From positions 1-20,024 of IMG/VR virus record IMGVR_UViG_3300045995_000205: a stretch of DNA of 20,024 bases, one strand, 5' to 3'. The position numbers and the translations under genes are program-made. How positions within the stretch are numbered: position 1 is the first letter of the stretch; every line of letters begins with the position of its first letter. Under the pieces are notes generated by a model. That model did no database searches and had not been told where the DNA came from. It saw only the letters and a list, made by a program, of their open reading frames with translations. This stretch comes from a virus. This document shows, one piece after another, positions 5,390 to 16,949 of the stretch.

Positions 5390-6148
5390 TTACTCTGCGT
5401 CGATGGTTTCGGGGGTTACGGTTGCCTTCAGGATTTCGATGTGCTCTTCAGACAATTGGGCTTTGCTGGAGATCGTGAAAATGATGTCGCCGGCAGTCTT
5501 GCGGCCGGACTCAATCAACTTGCGCCAGGCTGGCAAGTTCTTGGCGAAGTCTTCATCGCTGTATAACGGCAGGGCCTTTGCTGTGATCTCGCCAGTTTCG
5601 GGGTTGATCTGCTTCATGGCTGGCGCCTGGCTCTCGATGAGTCGCTCGGCTTCATCCGCGTCATAGATGCCACCAAATCCAAAGGCGATGCGCGCGCACT
5701 GGATCATTGCCTTGTGGCGCAACATTCGCTTGGGGTGAGACTGCCAAGGTCCGTTGCGGCCATTGACAGCAGGGCGTGAGCACTCTTCCATCCACTCGGT
5801 TACCTTGATCGGGTGGGCCCGGTCTTTGCGGTGGATGATGCAAGTGCAGCTGTCTGCATCCTGCTCGAAGTCCATACCGTCAAACTGCGCGTTGCTGTTG
5901 ATGATGCGGGTCCAACCATCAACACCGACTACCGGAACAATGCCACCCTTGTCCGGAAACGCATAAATTTCCTTAGTCCAGGGATTCAGCTTGTACTGGC
6001 CGGCTACGATCAGCAGTGCGCTGAGCTGGGCGTCGGTGACGTCGCCTTTGAATGCTGTGGCTTTCAGCACGTTGTAGAGCTCTTCGCTCTGGGGAAGATC
6101 GAAACGAGTGGCCAGCTCGTTGATCTGTGTGGTGATCAGATTGCTCAT
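5390..6148 (-). CDS. bet: Bet/RecT-type single-strand annealing protein
   Basis: A 252-residue recombinase that anneals complementary single-stranded DNA and works with the adjacent YqaJ exonuclease. The core reads LSALLIVAGQYKLNPWTKEI, then GIVPVVGVDGWTRIIN and MLRHKAMIQCARIAFGFGGI, which is the characteristic Red-beta/RecT family pattern. The C-terminal 80 residues are less conserved and may contact the exonuclease or host SSB, as in lambda Beta; that is family knowledge. The ATG at 6148 is preceded by a GAAAGAGA ribosome site. It is the first large gene of the early-left operon, after three small genes. Confidence 0.93.
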   Translation of the reverse strand: MSNLITTQINELATRFDLPQSEELYNVLKATAFKGDVTDAQLSALLIVAGQYKLNPWTKEIYAFPDKGGIVPVVGVDGWTRIINSNAQFDGMDFEQDADSCTCIIHRKDRAHPIKVTEWMEECSRPAVNGRNGPWQSHPKRMLRHKAMIQCARIAFGFGGIYDADEAERLIESQAPAMKQINPETGEITAKALPLYSDEDFAKNLPAWRKLIESGRKTAGDIIFTISSKAQLSEEHIEILKATVTPETIDAE

Positions 6149-6761: not shown

Positions 6762-6797
6762 CTTCACTCCTATGCAACGGGGTGCTGCGTTGGAATT

Positions 6798-6826
6798 AAT
6801 GTAATCCCAAAAATGGGATTAGTAAA
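6798..6826 (-). promoter_or_regulatory. Candidate leftward early promoter (pL analogue)
   Basis: On the minus strand a TTTACT -35 (6826-6821) and a TACATT -10 (6803-6798) are separated by 17 bases. Each matches the sigma70 consensus at 4 of 6 positions. The spacer is almost exactly filled by a perfect operator palindrome, which is the expected geometry for a repressor-controlled promoter. It would drive all genes from 6761 leftward through integrase. The start of transcription would fall near 6791. Confidence 0.6.
6802..6821. promoter_or_regulatory. Repressor operator OL1 (perfect 8-bp palindrome arms)
   Basis: The 20-base site TAATCCCAAAAATGGGATTA has two perfect 8-base arms (TAATCCCA and TGGGATTA) around an AAAA spacer. 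It lies between the -35 and -10 of the leftward promoter. The same half-site TGGGATTA recurs in the neighbouring site and beside the cro-like gene, so it is very probably the phage repressor's target. Confidence 0.8.
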
Positions 6827-6843
6827 GCCCAAAAGTGGGATTA
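6824..6843. promoter_or_regulatory. Repressor operator OL2
   Basis: The site AAAGCCCAAAAGTGGGATTA shares the right half-site TGGGATTA exactly with OL1 and has a degenerate left arm (AAAGCCCA). Its centre is 22 bases from the centre of OL1, about two helical turns, so two repressor dimers could bind side by side on the same face. It overlaps the -35 of the leftward promoter. Confidence 0.7.
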
Positions 6844-6890
6844 CAGCAAAATATTTTTTAGGTGTTAACCCTAAGCCCTTAATGCAGGCG

Positions 6891-6916
6891 TAAAAAAGCC
6901 GCCTCGGTGGGCGGCT
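6891..6916 (-). terminator. Rho-independent terminator after the signal-peptide gene
   Basis: On the minus strand a 7-bp stem (AGCCGCC / GGCGGCT) with a 6-base loop is followed by a run of six T. It lies 21 bases beyond the stop of the 6937-7200 gene and just upstream of the leftward early promoter. It would stop lysogenic transcription coming from the repressor side before it enters the lytic operon. Confidence 0.85.
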
Positions 6917-6936
6917 GGCGGGAAACGATATGACGG

Positions 6937-7200
6937 TTACTTTTTCAGGCTTTGGTCGTAGCACACGCGCAGTGCTACTCGAACGCCCATTTCGGTCGGG
7001 GCTTTGGCTGCCTCAAGGCGACATTTTTGCCATCTTGCCTCTTCAGCCTTCGTGAGTGGAGGGGGAGAAATTTGCTTGCAATTCACTGCCTGCTCGGGGG
7101 TCACTGTGTTTGTGTACTCTTCGCCGCATCGGTAAATCTTGTCGTCAGCTGCAAGGGCAATGGTCGGCAGGATGCAAACAATCAAAAGCAACTTTTTCAT
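6937..7200 (-). CDS. Small exported protein in the rex position (candidate lysogenic conversion or exclusion gene)
   Basis: An 87-residue precursor with a clear Sec signal peptide: MKK, a hydrophobic core LLLIVCILPTIALA, and a probable cleavage after ALA near residue 17. The mature part has Cys residues (KIYRCGEEYTN, AVNCKQI, WQKCRLEAAK, RVCYDQ), consistent with periplasmic disulfides, and the first of these resembles DUF4124-like small exported proteins. AGGAAAG precedes the ATG. It points the same way as the repressor gene and has its own terminator, so it could be made in the lysogen. That place matches lambda rex and is typical for superinfection-exclusion or conversion genes. The function itself cannot be read from the sequence. 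Confidence 0.75.
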   Translation of the reverse strand: MKKLLLIVCILPTIALAADDKIYRCGEEYTNTVTPEQAVNCKQISPPPLTKAEEARWQKCRLEAAKAPTEMGVRVALRVCYDQSLKK

Positions 7201-7382
7201 ATCTTTCCTGGTTTAAATCAGATCTGGCGATTCAACTGGTTGATTGATGCCTCACCTTGCTTAAAGTCAATCTTTCTTAAAACTTACAATATATCCACAG
7301 GATTTACACAGGATATGTCCCCACTGGGGTCTTGTGCGTCCGCTTTTTCACTGATTAAATAGACAGTAAATCAAGGAGGAAA
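7201..7382. other. Intergenic region with an 11-bp-spaced direct repeat and AT-rich tract
   Basis: A 182-base gap. CACAGGAT occurs twice, at 7297-7304 and 7308-7315, one helical turn apart, inside a larger inverted pair ATATCC (7291-7296) and GGATAT (7311-7316). ATATCCACA there is one mismatch from a DnaA box. Such phasing suggests a protein-binding site; which protein is unknown. A possible rightward promoter, TTGTGC (7332-7337) and TTAAAT (7355-7360) with 17-base spacing, leads into the 7383 reading frame. No further gene is evident. Confidence 0.45.
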
Positions 7383-7622
7383 ATGAAAACAATTATTTCG
7401 GTTGTATGCGTTGAGCCAGGCCAAGCTGATGCTGCACACAAGACGGCGTCCGTTATGTCTTCACTCGGCGTGAAGTTGCTGGTTTTTTCAGACCGGCAAC
7501 TGATGGAGAATTGGATTTTTGGCGCTCATTCCATTCCTGGGCTATGCGTGAAACGGCTATCAGCATCTGCGTTTTTGTCGACTCGTCCGAGTCTGGAACC
7601 TGATCGACAAGTAGCGCAATAG
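7383..7622 (+). CDS. Possible small protein antisense to the repressor 3' end (79 aa)
   Basis: A plus-strand frame with a near-perfect ribosome site AAGGAGG 3 bases before its ATG. The first 23 codons (MKTIISVVCVEPGQADAAHK) do not overlap any other gene; the rest runs opposite the last 170 bases of the repressor gene. The N-terminus is hydrophobic but lacks a convincing signal or membrane helix. The C-terminal half mirrors repressor codons and may be under little selection. Either it is a real short gene or an antisense transcript that dampens repressor, or the ribosome site is fortuitous. No family recognised. Confidence 0.4.
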   Translation: MKTIISVVCVEPGQADAAHKTASVMSSLGVKLLVFSDRQLMENWIFGAHSIPGLCVKRLSASAFLSTRPSLEPDRQVAQ

Positions 7623-7914
7623 ATTGCGCCAGATGGCTGTGAACTCTTCTATGTTCCTCTGCGGACAACACTAAACCATTGTCCATTGCCCCTGGTTCAA
7701 AGTCCGGGTGCAATAGCTGCCACGGCTCAATGCCGAACACCTCGGCTAGCGGCTCCAGTTTGTCTATCCCTAAGTCAACCTCGCACCTGGTGATCCGATC
7801 CAAAGTACCCCTGGATGGAGCGCCTTTGCTGACGAGCTGATCCAAATTTTTTAAAGTCGGACTGGCCTTCCTCAGTTTGTTGAAGTTTTGGGAGAGAACT
7901 TCGCGCAAAGTCAT
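7453..7914 (-). CDS. Phage repressor (CI position), XRE-type HTH without S24 protease domain
   Basis: A 153-residue DNA-binding protein expected to hold the lysogenic state. Residues about 5-70 form an HTH of the XRE kind: FNKLRKASPTLKNLDQLVSK, GAPSRGTLDRITR, then LGIDKLEPLAEVFGIEPWQL. The remaining 80 residues are helical (AEEHRRVHSHLAQSIALLVD) and may dimerise. There is no S24 self-cleavage domain with its Ser/Lys pair, so RecA-stimulated autocleavage seems unlikely. The frame is open to 7998, but the ATG at 7914 is preferred because the earlier starts lie within the operators. Divergent from the cro-like gene, it would bind the four palindromes at 6802-6843 and 7936-7978. Confidence 0.85.
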   Translation of the reverse strand: MTLREVLSQNFNKLRKASPTLKNLDQLVSKGAPSRGTLDRITRCEVDLGIDKLEPLAEVFGIEPWQLLHPDFEPGAMDNGLVLSAEEHRRVHSHLAQSIALLVDQVPDSDESTKTQMLIAVSRIAQEWNERQKSNSPSVAGLKKPATSRRVKT

Positions 7915-7935
7915 GGGGAAAGTCTGCCAGAATTT

Positions 7936-7955
7936 AAATCCCATCCATGGGCTTG
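7936..7955. promoter_or_regulatory. Repressor operator OR-type, repressor-proximal
   Basis: The site AAATCCCATCCATGGGCTTG has arms AAATCCCA and TGGGCTTG around a 4-base spacer, the same layout as the leftward operators. Read on the other strand, its arms resemble OL2. It lies just upstream of a TTTAAAT -10-like element for the repressor gene and next to the second operator (centres 23 bases apart). Confidence 0.65.
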
Positions 7956-7982
7956 CATCATTCCCAAATTTGGGATTAGAAT
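7953..7982 (+). promoter_or_regulatory. Candidate rightward early promoter (pR analogue)
   Basis: TTGCAT (7953-7958) and TAGAAT (7977-7982) are separated by 18 bases; the -10 matches sigma70 at 5 of 6 positions. The operator at 7959-7978 fills the spacer, as on the leftward side. The predicted transcription start, about 7 bases past the -10, falls on or next to the ATG at 7989, so the first gene may be translated from a leaderless message. Confidence 0.6.
7959..7978. promoter_or_regulatory. Repressor operator OR-type, cro-proximal
   Basis: The site CATTCCCAAATTTGGGATTA carries the exact half-site TGGGATTA seen twice on the leftward side and a perfect 14-base core palindrome TCCCAAATTTGGGA (7962-7975). 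It sits in the spacer of the rightward promoter. Confidence 0.8.
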
Positions 7983-7988
7983 GCGCCC

Positions 7989-8219
7989 ATGGAACCAATC
8001 ATCGACTATCTGAAGCGTAGGCTTCAAGAATCTGGACCGGGTCTCTGGGAGCCAATTGCACTGGAGTGTGGGATTGCAAAAACGCTTCCACGCAAGATTG
8101 CATATTCCGATCGGGAGAACCCGGGCGTACAAACCATCCAGCCGCTGCTTGATTTTTTCCAGGCGGTTGATCGTGGAGATAGGCAGCTTCCCGAGCTGAT
8201 CGAGAAGGCAGTCGCCTAA
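7989..8219 (+). CDS. Cro-like regulator, first gene of the early-right operon (76 aa)
   Basis: A 76-residue protein in the cro position, divergent from the repressor. A small HTH is visible: LWEPIALECGIAKTLPRKIA, then a linker with the usual charged turn (SDRENPGV) and a final helix QTIQPLLDFFQAV, as in short phage Cro-type regulators. It would bind the same operators and favour lytic growth, by analogy with lambda. The start is fixed at 7989: a stop codon lies four codons upstream in frame. No Shine-Dalgarno sequence is evident, and the predicted promoter places transcription start at the ATG, suggesting leaderless translation. Confidence 0.75.
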   Translation: MEPIIDYLKRRLQESGPGLWEPIALECGIAKTLPRKIAYSDRENPGVQTIQPLLDFFQAVDRGDRQLPELIEKAVA

Positions 8220-8441: not shown

Positions 8442-8671
8442 CGTTCGATGCCGCACATACGTGGCCGGATGGCACACCGCGATCCACCAACACCGCCTTC
8501 ACCTGGCGTAAGGAACCTGAGCCAGTACGGCAGCCGACCACTCACGAGCTGCGCCTGGAGAAGCAGCGCATCTACGAGCGCCAGCGATCTGCAAAGAAAT
8601 CTGCATTGCGCGTCAACCGTGAAGCATCCCTAGCCGCATTTGTTCCAAGTTCCACGAGGGCACCACGATGA
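8438..8671 (+). CDS. Small basic hypothetical protein (77 aa)
   Basis: Function unknown. The N-terminal part (TWPDGTPRSTNTAFTWRKEP) looks extended, and the middle is a basic charged helix (HELRLEKQRIYERQRSAKKS). Arginine and lysine together are high, so nucleic-acid contact is possible. It is coupled on both sides by ATGA overlaps to the ribbon-helix-helix gene and the antirepressor-like gene, which is the best evidence that it is translated. Confidence 0.65.
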   Translation: MTFDAAHTWPDGTPRSTNTAFTWRKEPEPVRQPTTHELRLEKQRIYERQRSAKKSALRVNREASLAAFVPSSTRAPR

Positions 8672-9408
8672 ACATTCAAATCGCAAATCAACAAGTGACC
8701 ATGACCAGCCTGGATCTGGTGGACTTCATTAATTCCACTGAGGAGCGCGAAAGCGAGCTTCGGCATGACCACTTCATGGCAAAGGTGCCGAAAGTTCTTG
8801 GGGAGGGTGCCCCAAAATTTCGGGACACCCACGTCAATCCACAGAACGGTCAGTCTTACCCAATTTACCGGCTTCCTAAACGCGAGGCTTGCCTGATGGC
8901 CATGAGCTACAGCTACGACCTGCAGGCCAAGGTGTACGACCGAATGACCGAGCTGGAGAGTCAAGCAGCTAAGCCGGCCGAACTTAGTCGTATGGATCTG
9001 ATCAAGCTGGCCATGGAAGCCGAGCAGGAACGCCTGGTTCTGGTTGAGAAGGTCGAAGTGCAGCAGCTGCTGATCGAATCACAGGCTCCGAAGGCCGCAT
9101 TTTTTGACACCGTGGCCACAGCCGCCAACTGCCAGAGCTTTGAGCAGACCGCCAAGGTTTGCCAGACAGGGAGAAACCGCCTCATTCGCTACTTGCGCGA
9201 GCGCCGCATCCTCAAGCACGACAACCTACCGTATCAGCACTACATCGATGCTGGCTACTTCAAGGTAATTGAGACATCAAGCTATGTGAATGGGCAGCCC
9301 AGGAACTTCACCAGTACCAAGGTAACAGGCAAAGGGCTCACCTGGATCCAGTCGAACGGCTACCACTTGCCACCTAGCGGCCAACAGCAGATTGGAACCA
9401 TGCAATGA
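8668..9408 (+). CDS. Rha/ANT antirepressor-like regulatory protein
   Basis: A 246-residue two-domain phage regulator. Residues 1-100 match the Rha domain: TSLDLVDFINSTEERESELR, HDHFMAKVPKVLG, FRDTHVNPQNGQSYPIYRLP, then a helix ending MTELESQ. A coiled-coil linker (ELSRMDLIKLAMEAEQERL) leads to an ANT/KilA-C type domain from about residue 135: KAAFFDTVATAANCQSFEQ, TGRNRLIRYLRERRIL, KGLTWIQSNGY. Proteins with these modules act as antirepressors or host-interference regulators in other phages. Coupled by ATGA overlaps to both neighbours. Confidence 0.88.
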   Translation: MNIQIANQQVTMTSLDLVDFINSTEERESELRHDHFMAKVPKVLGEGAPKFRDTHVNPQNGQSYPIYRLPKREACLMAMSYSYDLQAKVYDRMTELESQAAKPAELSRMDLIKLAMEAEQERLVLVEKVEVQQLLIESQAPKAAFFDTVATAANCQSFEQTAKVCQTGRNRLIRYLRERRILKHDNLPYQHYIDAGYFKVIETSSYVNGQPRNFTSTKVTGKGLTWIQSNGYHLPPSGQQQIGTMQ

Positions 9409-14236: not shown

Positions 14237-14478
14237 CCCAACTCACATTTGGCAGCTTTGGATCGGCCCAGGCCGTGACCACCAGCGACACCACACCCGT
14301 CACTTGCCGTGCAATCTATGTCGGTGGCGCCGGTAATGTGGCAGTGAAGACCAGCGCATCAGCTACGGCTGTGACGTTCACTGCGCCGCCGGTTGGCTCG
14401 ATCTTGCCCATCTTGATTGATGGCGGCCAGATCATGGCCACGAACACGACCGCAACTCTGTTGGTGGCCCTGGCGTAA
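14233..14478 (+). CDS. Small beta-rich hypothetical protein between terminase and portal (81 aa)
   Basis: A threonine- and alanine-rich protein with alternating hydrophobic residues (TPVTCRAIYVGGAGNVAVKT, then TFTAPPVGSILPILIDGG and ATLLVALA), suggesting an all-beta fold. I recall similar proteins in head-gene clusters of phages, where they are often labelled as small structural or decoration-type proteins. No function can be read directly. Its ATG overlaps the terL stop, and its own stop overlaps the portal ATG as TAATG. Confidence 0.7.
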   Translation: MTQLTFGSFGSAQAVTTSDTTPVTCRAIYVGGAGNVAVKTSASATAVTFTAPPVGSILPILIDGGQIMATNTTATLLVALA

Positions 14479-16949
14479 TGGCACTCGACGGAGATTCTCT
14501 AGCCAACTCGCTGGAGAAGAAGGAAGATTTAGGCAAGACGCCACAGGCCAAAGCGCGCCGGTGGAAGCTTGAGCTTAAATTGGCTGACAAGCGGGAGAGT
14601 GCATGGCGCAAGAAGGTCTCGGACATTTACAAGACCTACGCTCCAGAGACTGCCGCAACGAACTCCTTCAATATTCTGTGGACAAACACGGAAACCTTGC
14701 GCCAGGCGGTTTATAACAGCCTACCCGAGCCGCAAGTACGCCGCCGGTACACAGACGCAGATCCGCTGGGAAAGAGCGTAAGCGAGGTTCTAACCCGCGC
14801 GCTGGAATTCGCCCAAGAGACATACGACTTTGATGCAGTCATAAAGGGCGATGTGCTGGCGATGCTTCTGCCTGGTCGTTCTGTCAGTCGTGTGCGCTAT
14901 GTGCCGGACATCAAGCAGATTGCTGGGGAAGATTCTGAAGCTGACGACGACACACAAGAGTCAGAAGCCTATGAGGAAATCGACTGGGAGCAAGTTGTCT
15001 GTGAGCGCATCCAGTGGGATGATCTTCGCATTTCAGCCGGCAAGACATGGGATGAGGTGTGCTGGGTGGCTTTTCGCCATCGGTTCACGCGCGAGGATTG
15101 CACAGAGAAATTTGGCGAGGAAATTGGCAAGAAAGTGCCGCTCGATTCAGTTGAAGACGAGGACGTAAAGAAGTCCAAGGACGTTGATGATCTATTCAAG
15201 ACCGCAGAAGTCTGGGAAATTTGGGACAAGGACGAGAAAGAAGTCTTGTGGCTTTGCCCGACATATCCGACCATTCTGAAAGAGCAGGACGATCCGATGG
15301 AGCTGCAAGGCTTCTTCCCGATCCCGCGGCCTCTGTACGCCATTGAGAACGATCAGAGCCTGATTCCTCAACCCTTGTATGCCCAATACGAGCAGCAGGC
15401 CAAGGAATTGAACCTGATCTCAATGCGGATCAACAAGATCATCAACGCATTGAAGGTTCGGGGTATTTACGACTCGACGCTCTCTGAGTTGTCTGAGCTG
15501 ATGAAGGCCGGAGACAACGAGCTGATCGCCGCTGCCAACGTCACAGCACTATTGGAGCGCGGTGGGCTTGAGAAGGCAATCTGGATGATGCCGATCGACA
15601 CCGCAGCAATGGTGTTGAAGGAGCTTTACGCCCAACGCGATGCCACGAAACAGGTGATTTACGAGATTACCGGCATCAGCGACATCATGCGCTCTGCATC
15701 TGACCCGAATGAAACGTTTGGCGCGCAGAAGATCAAGACGCAGTGGGGAACTCAAAGACTCCAGCGCATGCAGCTTGAAGTTCAGCGCTACATCCGTGAC
15801 CTGGTCAGGCTGAAGGCTGAGATCATTGCGGAGAAGTTCCAGCCGGCCACTCTTGAAGCGATGACGTTGGTCAGCCTGCCGCACCAGGCGCAGTTGGATC
15901 AGCAGTACGCCCAACAGATGGGCCAGTACCAGCAGGCCATGCAGCAGTACCAGATGCAGATGCATCAGCCTGCGCAGCCTGGACAGCCTCCGCAGCAGCC
16001 ACCACCACAGCCGCCACAAAAGCCGGTTGGTGTTGTGACATGGGAAGCGGTTGTCAAAGCTCTGCACGACGATGCCACCAGGACATATCGGGTGGACATT
16101 GAGACGGACTCGACTCTCTCGGCCAGCCAAGAATCCGACATGACGGAACTCGGCGGACTGATCAAGGGCATTGGTGGCATGTTCCAGGCTCTTGAGCCAT
16201 TGATGCAAAACGGCGGCATGCCCATTGAGACGGTCAAAGAACTGATGCTGTCCGTGGTTCGCCGTGCCAAGCTGGGTTCAGCGGTTGAGGATGCCATCGA
16301 GAAGATGCAGCAACCCAAACCCCAGGATCCGAACGCCGGCCAGATGCAGATCGAGCAGATGAAGGCCCAAGCAGCTCAACAGACCGCGCAGATGAATGCC
16401 CAGGTGCAAGGCCAGCAAGCCCAGGCACAGATGCAGCATGAAGCGCAGTTGGAGCAGATGAAGGCCCAGCTCGCAGATCAGCAGCACCAGCGCGAGATGC
16501 AGCAAAAGGCCCAGGCTGACCAGATGGAGGCGCAGAACTCCATGACTATGGAGCAGCATAAGCAAGAGATGCAGGCCCAGCAAATCAACGCACAGAACCA
16601 GATTGAAGCCCAGCGCGACCAGCATCGCATGGACTTGGAAGCCGCGCAGGCCGACCGTGAGCAGCAATACAAACTGCAAATCGAGATGGCAAAGATCGAA
16701 TGGGAGCGCGAGAAGGCAACCATCGAATACCGCAAAGCCATTGAAGTTGCTGAGATTGCAGCCGCCACGACCTTGCAGACTGCCCAGGCCAGCGCAGCTA
16801 TGTCTGCCTCTAAGGGTGAGGCGGTGGAGGGCGATTCAAAGGCACAAGCAAGCAGCCAGAAGGCCACGCTTGATGCGGTGGTGGCTCACTTGAGCAAGCC
16901 TAAAAGAATAGTTCGTGGGACAGATGGAAAAGTCGTAGGGATTGAATAA
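14478..16949 (+). CDS. Portal protein, large P22-like type with Gln-rich C-terminal region
   Basis: An 823-residue portal forming the dodecameric ring through which DNA enters and leaves the head. The N-terminal 450 residues have the P22/podovirus portal look: WRKKVSDIYKTYAPETAATN, NTETLRQAVYNSLPEPQVRR, a stem region FNILWT, and YEITGISDIMRSASDPNETF with GAQKIKTQWGTQRLQRMQLE. Residues about 475-516 are Gln/Pro-rich. From 609 to about 750 there is a long Gln-, Ala- and Met-rich coiled coil (QMQIEQMKAQAAQQTAQMNA), which may form an internal barrel like the P22 portal C-terminus. It is longer than the P22 portal (725 aa). The next gene starts within its stop codon. Confidence 0.9.
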   Translation: MALDGDSLANSLEKKEDLGKTPQAKARRWKLELKLADKRESAWRKKVSDIYKTYAPETAATNSFNILWTNTETLRQAVYNSLPEPQVRRRYTDADPLGKSVSEVLTRALEFAQETYDFDAVIKGDVLAMLLPGRSVSRVRYVPDIKQIAGEDSEADDDTQESEAYEEIDWEQVVCERIQWDDLRISAGKTWDEVCWVAFRHRFTREDCTEKFGEEIGKKVPLDSVEDEDVKKSKDVDDLFKTAEVWEIWDKDEKEVLWLCPTYPTILKEQDDPMELQGFFPIPRPLYAIENDQSLIPQPLYAQYEQQAKELNLISMRINKIINALKVRGIYDSTLSELSELMKAGDNELIAAANVTALLERGGLEKAIWMMPIDTAAMVLKELYAQRDATKQVIYEITGISDIMRSASDPNETFGAQKIKTQWGTQRLQRMQLEVQRYIRDLVRLKAEIIAEKFQPATLEAMTLVSLPHQAQLDQQYAQQMGQYQQAMQQYQMQMHQPAQPGQPPQQPPPQPPQKPVGVVTWEAVVKALHDDATRTYRVDIETDSTLSASQESDMTELGGLIKGIGGMFQALEPLMQNGGMPIETVKELMLSVVRRAKLGSAVEDAIEKMQQPKPQDPNAGQMQIEQMKAQAAQQTAQMNAQVQGQQAQAQMQHEAQLEQMKAQLADQQHQREMQQKAQADQMEAQNSMTMEQHKQEMQAQQINAQNQIEAQRDQHRMDLEAAQADREQQYKLQIEMAKIEWEREKATIEYRKAIEVAEIAAATTLQTAQASAAMSASKGEAVEGDSKAQASSQKATLDAVVAHLSKPKRIVRGTDGKVVGIE

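Follow-up and report, generated by a model that had tools for sequence, protein, structure and literature searches.

The window analysed here comprises a whole viral record, a linear contig of 20,024 bp that is probably a fragment. Within it, a repressor gene and a cro-like gene diverge from a pair of palindromic sites, and a second, matching pair lies beyond the repressor gene. The genes, promoters and sites of the region are the following, the 20-bp sites being scored with the weight matrix (PWM) described below.

5390-6148, minus strand: gene for a RecT/Bet-like annealing protein, downstream of PL
6798-6826, minus strand: PL promoter, TTTACT (6826-6821), 17-nt spacer, TACATT (6803-6798), assigned from the sequence; relatives have TTGACA here
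6802-6821: operator OL1, TAATCCCAAAAATGGGATTA, PWM 28.5 bits (top match), within the PL spacer, with a counterpart in 16 relatives
6824-6843: operator OL2, AAAGCCCAAAAGTGGGATTA, PWM 20.5 bits, the mirror of OR2, abutting or overlapping the PL -35
6897-6916, minus strand: intrinsic-terminator-like hairpin, stem of 7 pairs (6 GC) with a T-tract, -13.6 kcal/mol
7453-7914, minus strand: prophage repressor gene, 153 aa, N-terminal helix-turn-helix (HTH) and helical C-terminus
7921-7929, minus strand: repressor promoter, extended -10 TGG-CAGACT, 6 nt before the repressor ATG at 7914
7936-7955: operator OR2, AAATCCCATCCATGGGCTTG, PWM 19.0 bits, conserved in position, abutting or overlapping the PR -35 and spanning the -35 region of the repressor promoter
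7953-7982, plus strand: PR promoter, TTGCAT (7953-7958), 18-nt spacer, TAGAAT (7977-7982), assigned from the sequence and from relatives
7959-7978: operator OR1, CATTCCCAAATTTGGGATTA, PWM 25.2 bits, conserved in position, within the PR spacer and overlapping the edge of its -10
7989-8219, plus strand: gene for a Cro-like repressor, 76 aa, four-helix HTH, PHROG 9425 'transcriptional repressor'
8668-9408, plus strand: KilAC/Rha-type antirepressor gene, downstream of cro, a candidate repressor inactivator

The sequence-only reading had placed four 20-bp palindromes at these positions, in pairs spaced 22 and 23 bp from centre to centre, with OL1 in the spacer of a leftward promoter and the cro-proximal site in the spacer of a rightward one. 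All of these positions and spacings were recovered exactly from the sequence, and the promoters read there are TTTACT-17-TACATT (leftward) and TTGCAT-18-TAGAAT (rightward). The half-site TGGGATTA, searched for throughout the 20,024-bp contig, is confined to the proposed sites: it occurs four times against 0.25 expected, twice in OL1 and once each in OL2 and OR1, and none of 100 shuffled sequences held four copies. The half-site at 7936-7955 is imperfect (TGGGCTTG), which is why the site nearest to cro is named OR1 and the one nearest to the repressor gene OR2.

The window Cro, used as a query, retrieves relatives in viral contigs and in the genomes of Variovorax, Acidovorax, Methylibium and Piscinibacter, and a divergent HTH repressor gene lies upstream of cro in nearly every locus inspected. 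From 14 of these relatives, 28 right-hand sites were used to build a symmetric 20-bp PWM, with the window and all left-hand sites excluded. Applied to the window, this matrix ranks the proposed operators first to fourth (28.5, 25.2, 20.5 and 19.0 bits), the fifth match reaching 10.5 bits, and the fourth-best score is at most 7.5 bits in 200 order-1 Markov sequences of window length. Two left-hand and two right-hand operators are also the top four matches in the 14 near relatives and in L014 and L040 (about 7-10 kb each); several of these 16 loci are Comamonadaceae-type prophages, and the set includes the near-duplicates L018/L021, L019/L020 and L024/L025. The four matching sites are thus real and conserved, and the earlier proposal of a lambda-type OL/OR logic with two sites per side gains strong support from this conservation in at least 16 related loci.

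Operator spacing in the related loci is mostly about 22-24 bp, but the right-hand sites of L014, at 35 bp, show that this distance is not fixed. The left region mirrors the right one in the window and in relatives, with site 1 within the spacer; site 2 adjoins the -35 in relatives (GGGTTGACA/GGGATTGAC) and terminates in GGG(A)TTGAC, so that the -35 is abutted or overlapped. In the fully listed records (e.g., those of 59.7, 45.7, and 38.2 kb), the four immunity sites are the only places with the exact core TCCCR-N4-YGGGA, and the one-mismatch core is found at further places in larger records at about the rate of a reversed control pattern. Three operators per side, as a plan, were not found in the window or among the top four matches of the near relatives, which hold two only; a third site on the right, about 30 bp from site 2, is often present in deeper TCCC-type relatives (L070, L031, L033, L035, and others).

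PL and PR of the window each match 8 of 12 consensus positions and, because the generic promoter scanner has a threshold of 9 of 12, neither is reported by it; relatives have TTGACA and TATGAT or TATGCT at these positions. The predicted start of the PR transcript, at about 7989, coincides with the A of the cro start codon. The repressor -10 stands exactly 6 nt from the ATG in the near loci aligned over this region, the distance from the cro -10 to its ATG is 5-8 nt in the near group, and both genes start with ATG in this group. Since a normal spacing from -10 to +1 makes transcription begin at the AUG or no more than about 2 nt away from it, the repressor and cro mRNAs are both predicted to be leaderless. 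A precedent exists in PY54, whose leaderless cI and cro mRNAs were measured by RACE (PMC4488713). In several loci of the ACCG operator class it is OR2 that lies in the PR spacer, OR1 being placed in a cro leader of 21-25 nt, so a leaderless cro is not universal. The PL -10 is followed by a CCATCGCAGCA-like stretch in the window (6780-6800) and likewise on the left side of several relatives (L012, L014, L024, and L038), possibly serving as a start-region or antitermination element.

The Cro-like protein matches the profile of PHROG 9425 over residues 1-69 (E 2.1e-20), and its AlphaFold model is a four-helix HTH whose best Foldseek match is weak (E 1.2). The repressor matched none of the Pfam and PHROG models and, as a query, found no relatives in viral contigs; its assignment rests on the relatives, tblastn against their loci and the AlphaFold model. 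About 70-80 N-terminal residues are common to the repressors of the window and its relatives (at best 55% identity, E 1e-25, by tblastn against loci), and the C-termini differ among relatives. The model has a confident N-terminal HTH, with pLDDT mostly above 90, and a helical C-terminus without strands; the best Foldseek match is a Salmonella temperate-phage repressor (5d4z), a weak one (E 0.03). An S24 domain was detected neither in the window repressor nor in any of 15 aligned repressors, which makes RecA-stimulated self-cleavage unlikely.

Among the neighbouring genes, PL points towards a small ORF and the RecT/Bet gene, and the KilAC/Rha gene is placed two small genes after cro. An antirepressor as a family-wide partner of the switch was considered and rejected, as none was found near cro in relatives. 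The hairpin at 6897-6916 (minus strand) would stop the leftward repressor transcript ahead of OL. At 7383-7622 on the plus strand, an ORF of 79 aa with a good AAGGAGG ribosome site is convergent with the repressor gene and overlaps its 3' end; it has no family match. The interval between OL and the repressor gene (window 6843-7450), compared in L012, L013, L036, L024, L025, and L022, corresponds to the rex position of lambda. The gene content of this interval is different in nearly every relative and runs from no gene at all to several small ORFs, including membrane- or lipoprotein-like ones, and a PADLOC search for a defence function with ten of these proteins gave no matches. Farther to the right, the ORF at 14478-16949 (823 aa) matches phage portal proteins (Mx8/Mx9 and others), which rules it out as a primase and places structural genes soon after the early right region.

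The sequence of the operators follows the recognition helix of Cro. Operators of the TCCCR type, with minor variants, pair with the Cro helix AKTLPRK. A wider Cro search brought up two further classes: AGCCGGATGCGGCT operators (AGCCG class) pair with SPSLLPK (L059 and L065); and ACCG-N4-CGGT operators pair with xxSFIRK (L060, L061, L062, L064, L066, L069, L072, and L074). The ACCG class has a different operator but retains two OL sites (22-24 bp) and two OR sites (25 bp). In L060, L061, L062, L069, and L072, OR1 lies inside the cro leader, another promoter geometry on the same two-plus-two plan. This covariation supports the view that Cro reads these sites, as far as can be judged from sequence comparison. 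In L032 and L034, however, the AKTLPRK helix is retained and OR1 is of a GTCCTA type, so the operator is not set by the Cro helix alone. The correlation between Cro helix and half-site has been studied earlier, as cited in PMC4997575.

Taken together, the four sites are very probably the OL and OR operators of a lambda-type immunity switch of a temperate phage, two on each side, through which a dimer of the 153-aa repressor would control PL and PR. Bound to OL1/OL2 and OR1/OR2, the dimer would keep off both PL, with the recombination operon, and PR, with cro, the antirepressor gene and later genes. OL1 and OR1, near-consensus sites within the promoter spacers, are presumably the stronger ones and would be occupied before OL2 and OR2, which would reinforce the repression of PL and PR. 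OR2 spans positions -22 to -41, that is, the -35 region, of the extended -10 promoter of the repressor gene, so its occupancy should shut this gene, either by autorepression or through Cro. A single weaker site, OR2, may thereby do the job of lambda OR3 and reinforce the repression of PR as well. Both the repressor and cro would be translated as leaderless mRNAs, their start codons lying at the predicted +1 or about 2 nt from it at most. Because a LexA-type self-cleavage domain is undetected in the repressor, induction probably proceeds through an antirepressor, for which the KilAC/Rha protein is the candidate in this phage, or through another signal.

How the two proteins share the sites admits another reading, in which the repressor binds all four and Cro binds only OR2, repressing the repressor gene and not PR or PL. 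This division of labour is documented in phiKO2 and PY54 (PMC4997575, PMC4488713), OR2 is the natural target to shut the repressor promoter, and in L032 and L034 OR1 has changed with the Cro helix unchanged. The shift of the operator class at all four sites together with the Cro helix, in the ACCG and AGCCG classes, speaks against it, but the repressor changes along with the operator class too, so class covariation does not separate this division from a Cro that reads every site. We hold it to be a tentative possibility, somewhat on the improbable side. At the other extreme, the palindromes could be host-regulator sites or chance repeats unrelated to repressor and Cro; but they keep the same places about the repressor/cro pair across distinct hosts, and their sequence class follows the phage proteins, which leaves this reading with almost no probability.

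Two further possibilities concern what the bound repressor may do beyond blocking PL and PR. The paired clusters flank the repressor gene in all near relatives, which would suit a 1.1-kb loop bridging OL and OR through repressor oligomers, and loops across about 2.3 kb are described for lambda (PMC5880393). Against this, the distance from OL1 to OR1 varies among relatives between 0.46 and 2.3 kb without significant helical phasing (P 0.64 after a period scan), and the variable repressor C-termini have no conserved oligomerisation domain; looping is rated as unlikely, if well short of implausible. Less probable still is activation of the repressor promoter by repressor bound at OR1, on the model of lambda CI at OR2. 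In favour of it, the -10 of this promoter (CANACT) is weak and a -35 is not recognisable. Counted from a start at the repressor ATG, however, the centres of OR1 and OR2 fall at about -54.5 and about -31.5, and neither matches the -42 of lambda. An alternative -10, TTAAAT (7937-7932), would put OR1 at about -43; being the sole fitting -10 and not conserved in relatives, it does not sustain a lambda-like activation from -42.

Repression of PL and PR from two operators per side, the preferred reading, can be set beside known systems. In lambda, the repressor and cro genes are divergent, operators lie over PL and PR with the repressor gene between OL and OR, recombination genes lie to the left of PL, and operators are spaced by about 23 bp. 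The window is alike in the operators that lie between its diverging repressor and cro genes, in the matching operators beyond the repressor gene that overlap a leftward early promoter, in the recombination gene to the left of PL (RecT/Bet) and in an operator spacing of about 23 bp. It differs in having two sites per side instead of three, each of 20 bp and of another sequence, in a repressor without a detected S24/LexA autocleavage domain of the lambda type, in a cro predicted to be leaderless as well as the repressor, and in a spacing from site to repressor promoter that departs from the activation position of lambda.

The telomere phages N15, phiKO2, and PY54, with their immB regions, offer a second comparison (PMC4997575, PMC4488713). 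As in the window, N15 and phiKO2 have two OL operators and a repressor without a self-cleavage motif, and the cI and cro mRNAs of PY54 are leaderless by RACE, those of the window by prediction. The OR sites number three in N15 and phiKO2, one in PY54 and two in the window; in the telomere phages OL controls plasmid replication and the operator differs from that of the window. Distant homologues of the window Cro occur in Pseudomonas phage PAJU2 and Achromobacter phage CF418P1. The latter resembles the window in its near-leaderless cro and in the AACCCAAATATGGGTT of its PR spacer, but it has extra sites and its cro is unannotated, whereas PAJU2 differs in its longer annotated cI (a 705-bp CDS) and its cro leader. 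In CF418P1 (OQ817832), the unannotated cro homologue lies at L085:2929-3165, with an operator in the promoter spacer and a near-leaderless ATG, and annotated ORFs overlie it on the opposite strand. As for the repressor, the best structural match, 5d4z, shares about 20% sequence identity with it; the entry titles of PDB 5d4z/5d50 describe Rep-Ant of a Salmonella temperate phage, a short repressor acted on by an antirepressor. We take this phage to be SPC32H.

The sequence-only reading had seen in these operators a new-looking immunity specificity. This holds insofar as no described phage immunity system with this operator was found: the repressor, Cro and DNA gave no match in the annotated phage collection, where PAJU2 and CF418P1 are the only looser Cro relatives, and no description of the operator or the family was found in an open-access literature library. 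On the other hand, the core TCCCR-N4-YGGGA is common to many related prophages, which makes it a feature of the family rather than a specificity peculiar to this phage. The switch is most likely a compact variant of the known lambda-type kind. A broader claim, for which we see an even chance, is that it belongs to an undescribed and widespread family of switches with four operators and double-leaderless repressor and cro mRNAs, in which one site does the work of lambda OR2 and OR3 and at least three specificities have arisen through paired changes of the Cro and repressor helices and of the operators.

The locus would represent a compact, naturally minimised lambda-like switch with clean, sequence-matched operator sets, from phages of environmental bacteria whose immunity is almost unstudied. 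The several specificities carried by one architecture may allow testing which residues set operator choice and which prophages should be cross-immune, and the two-plus-two family as a whole may allow testing how such a switch works when it lacks both a third operator and a cleavable repressor.
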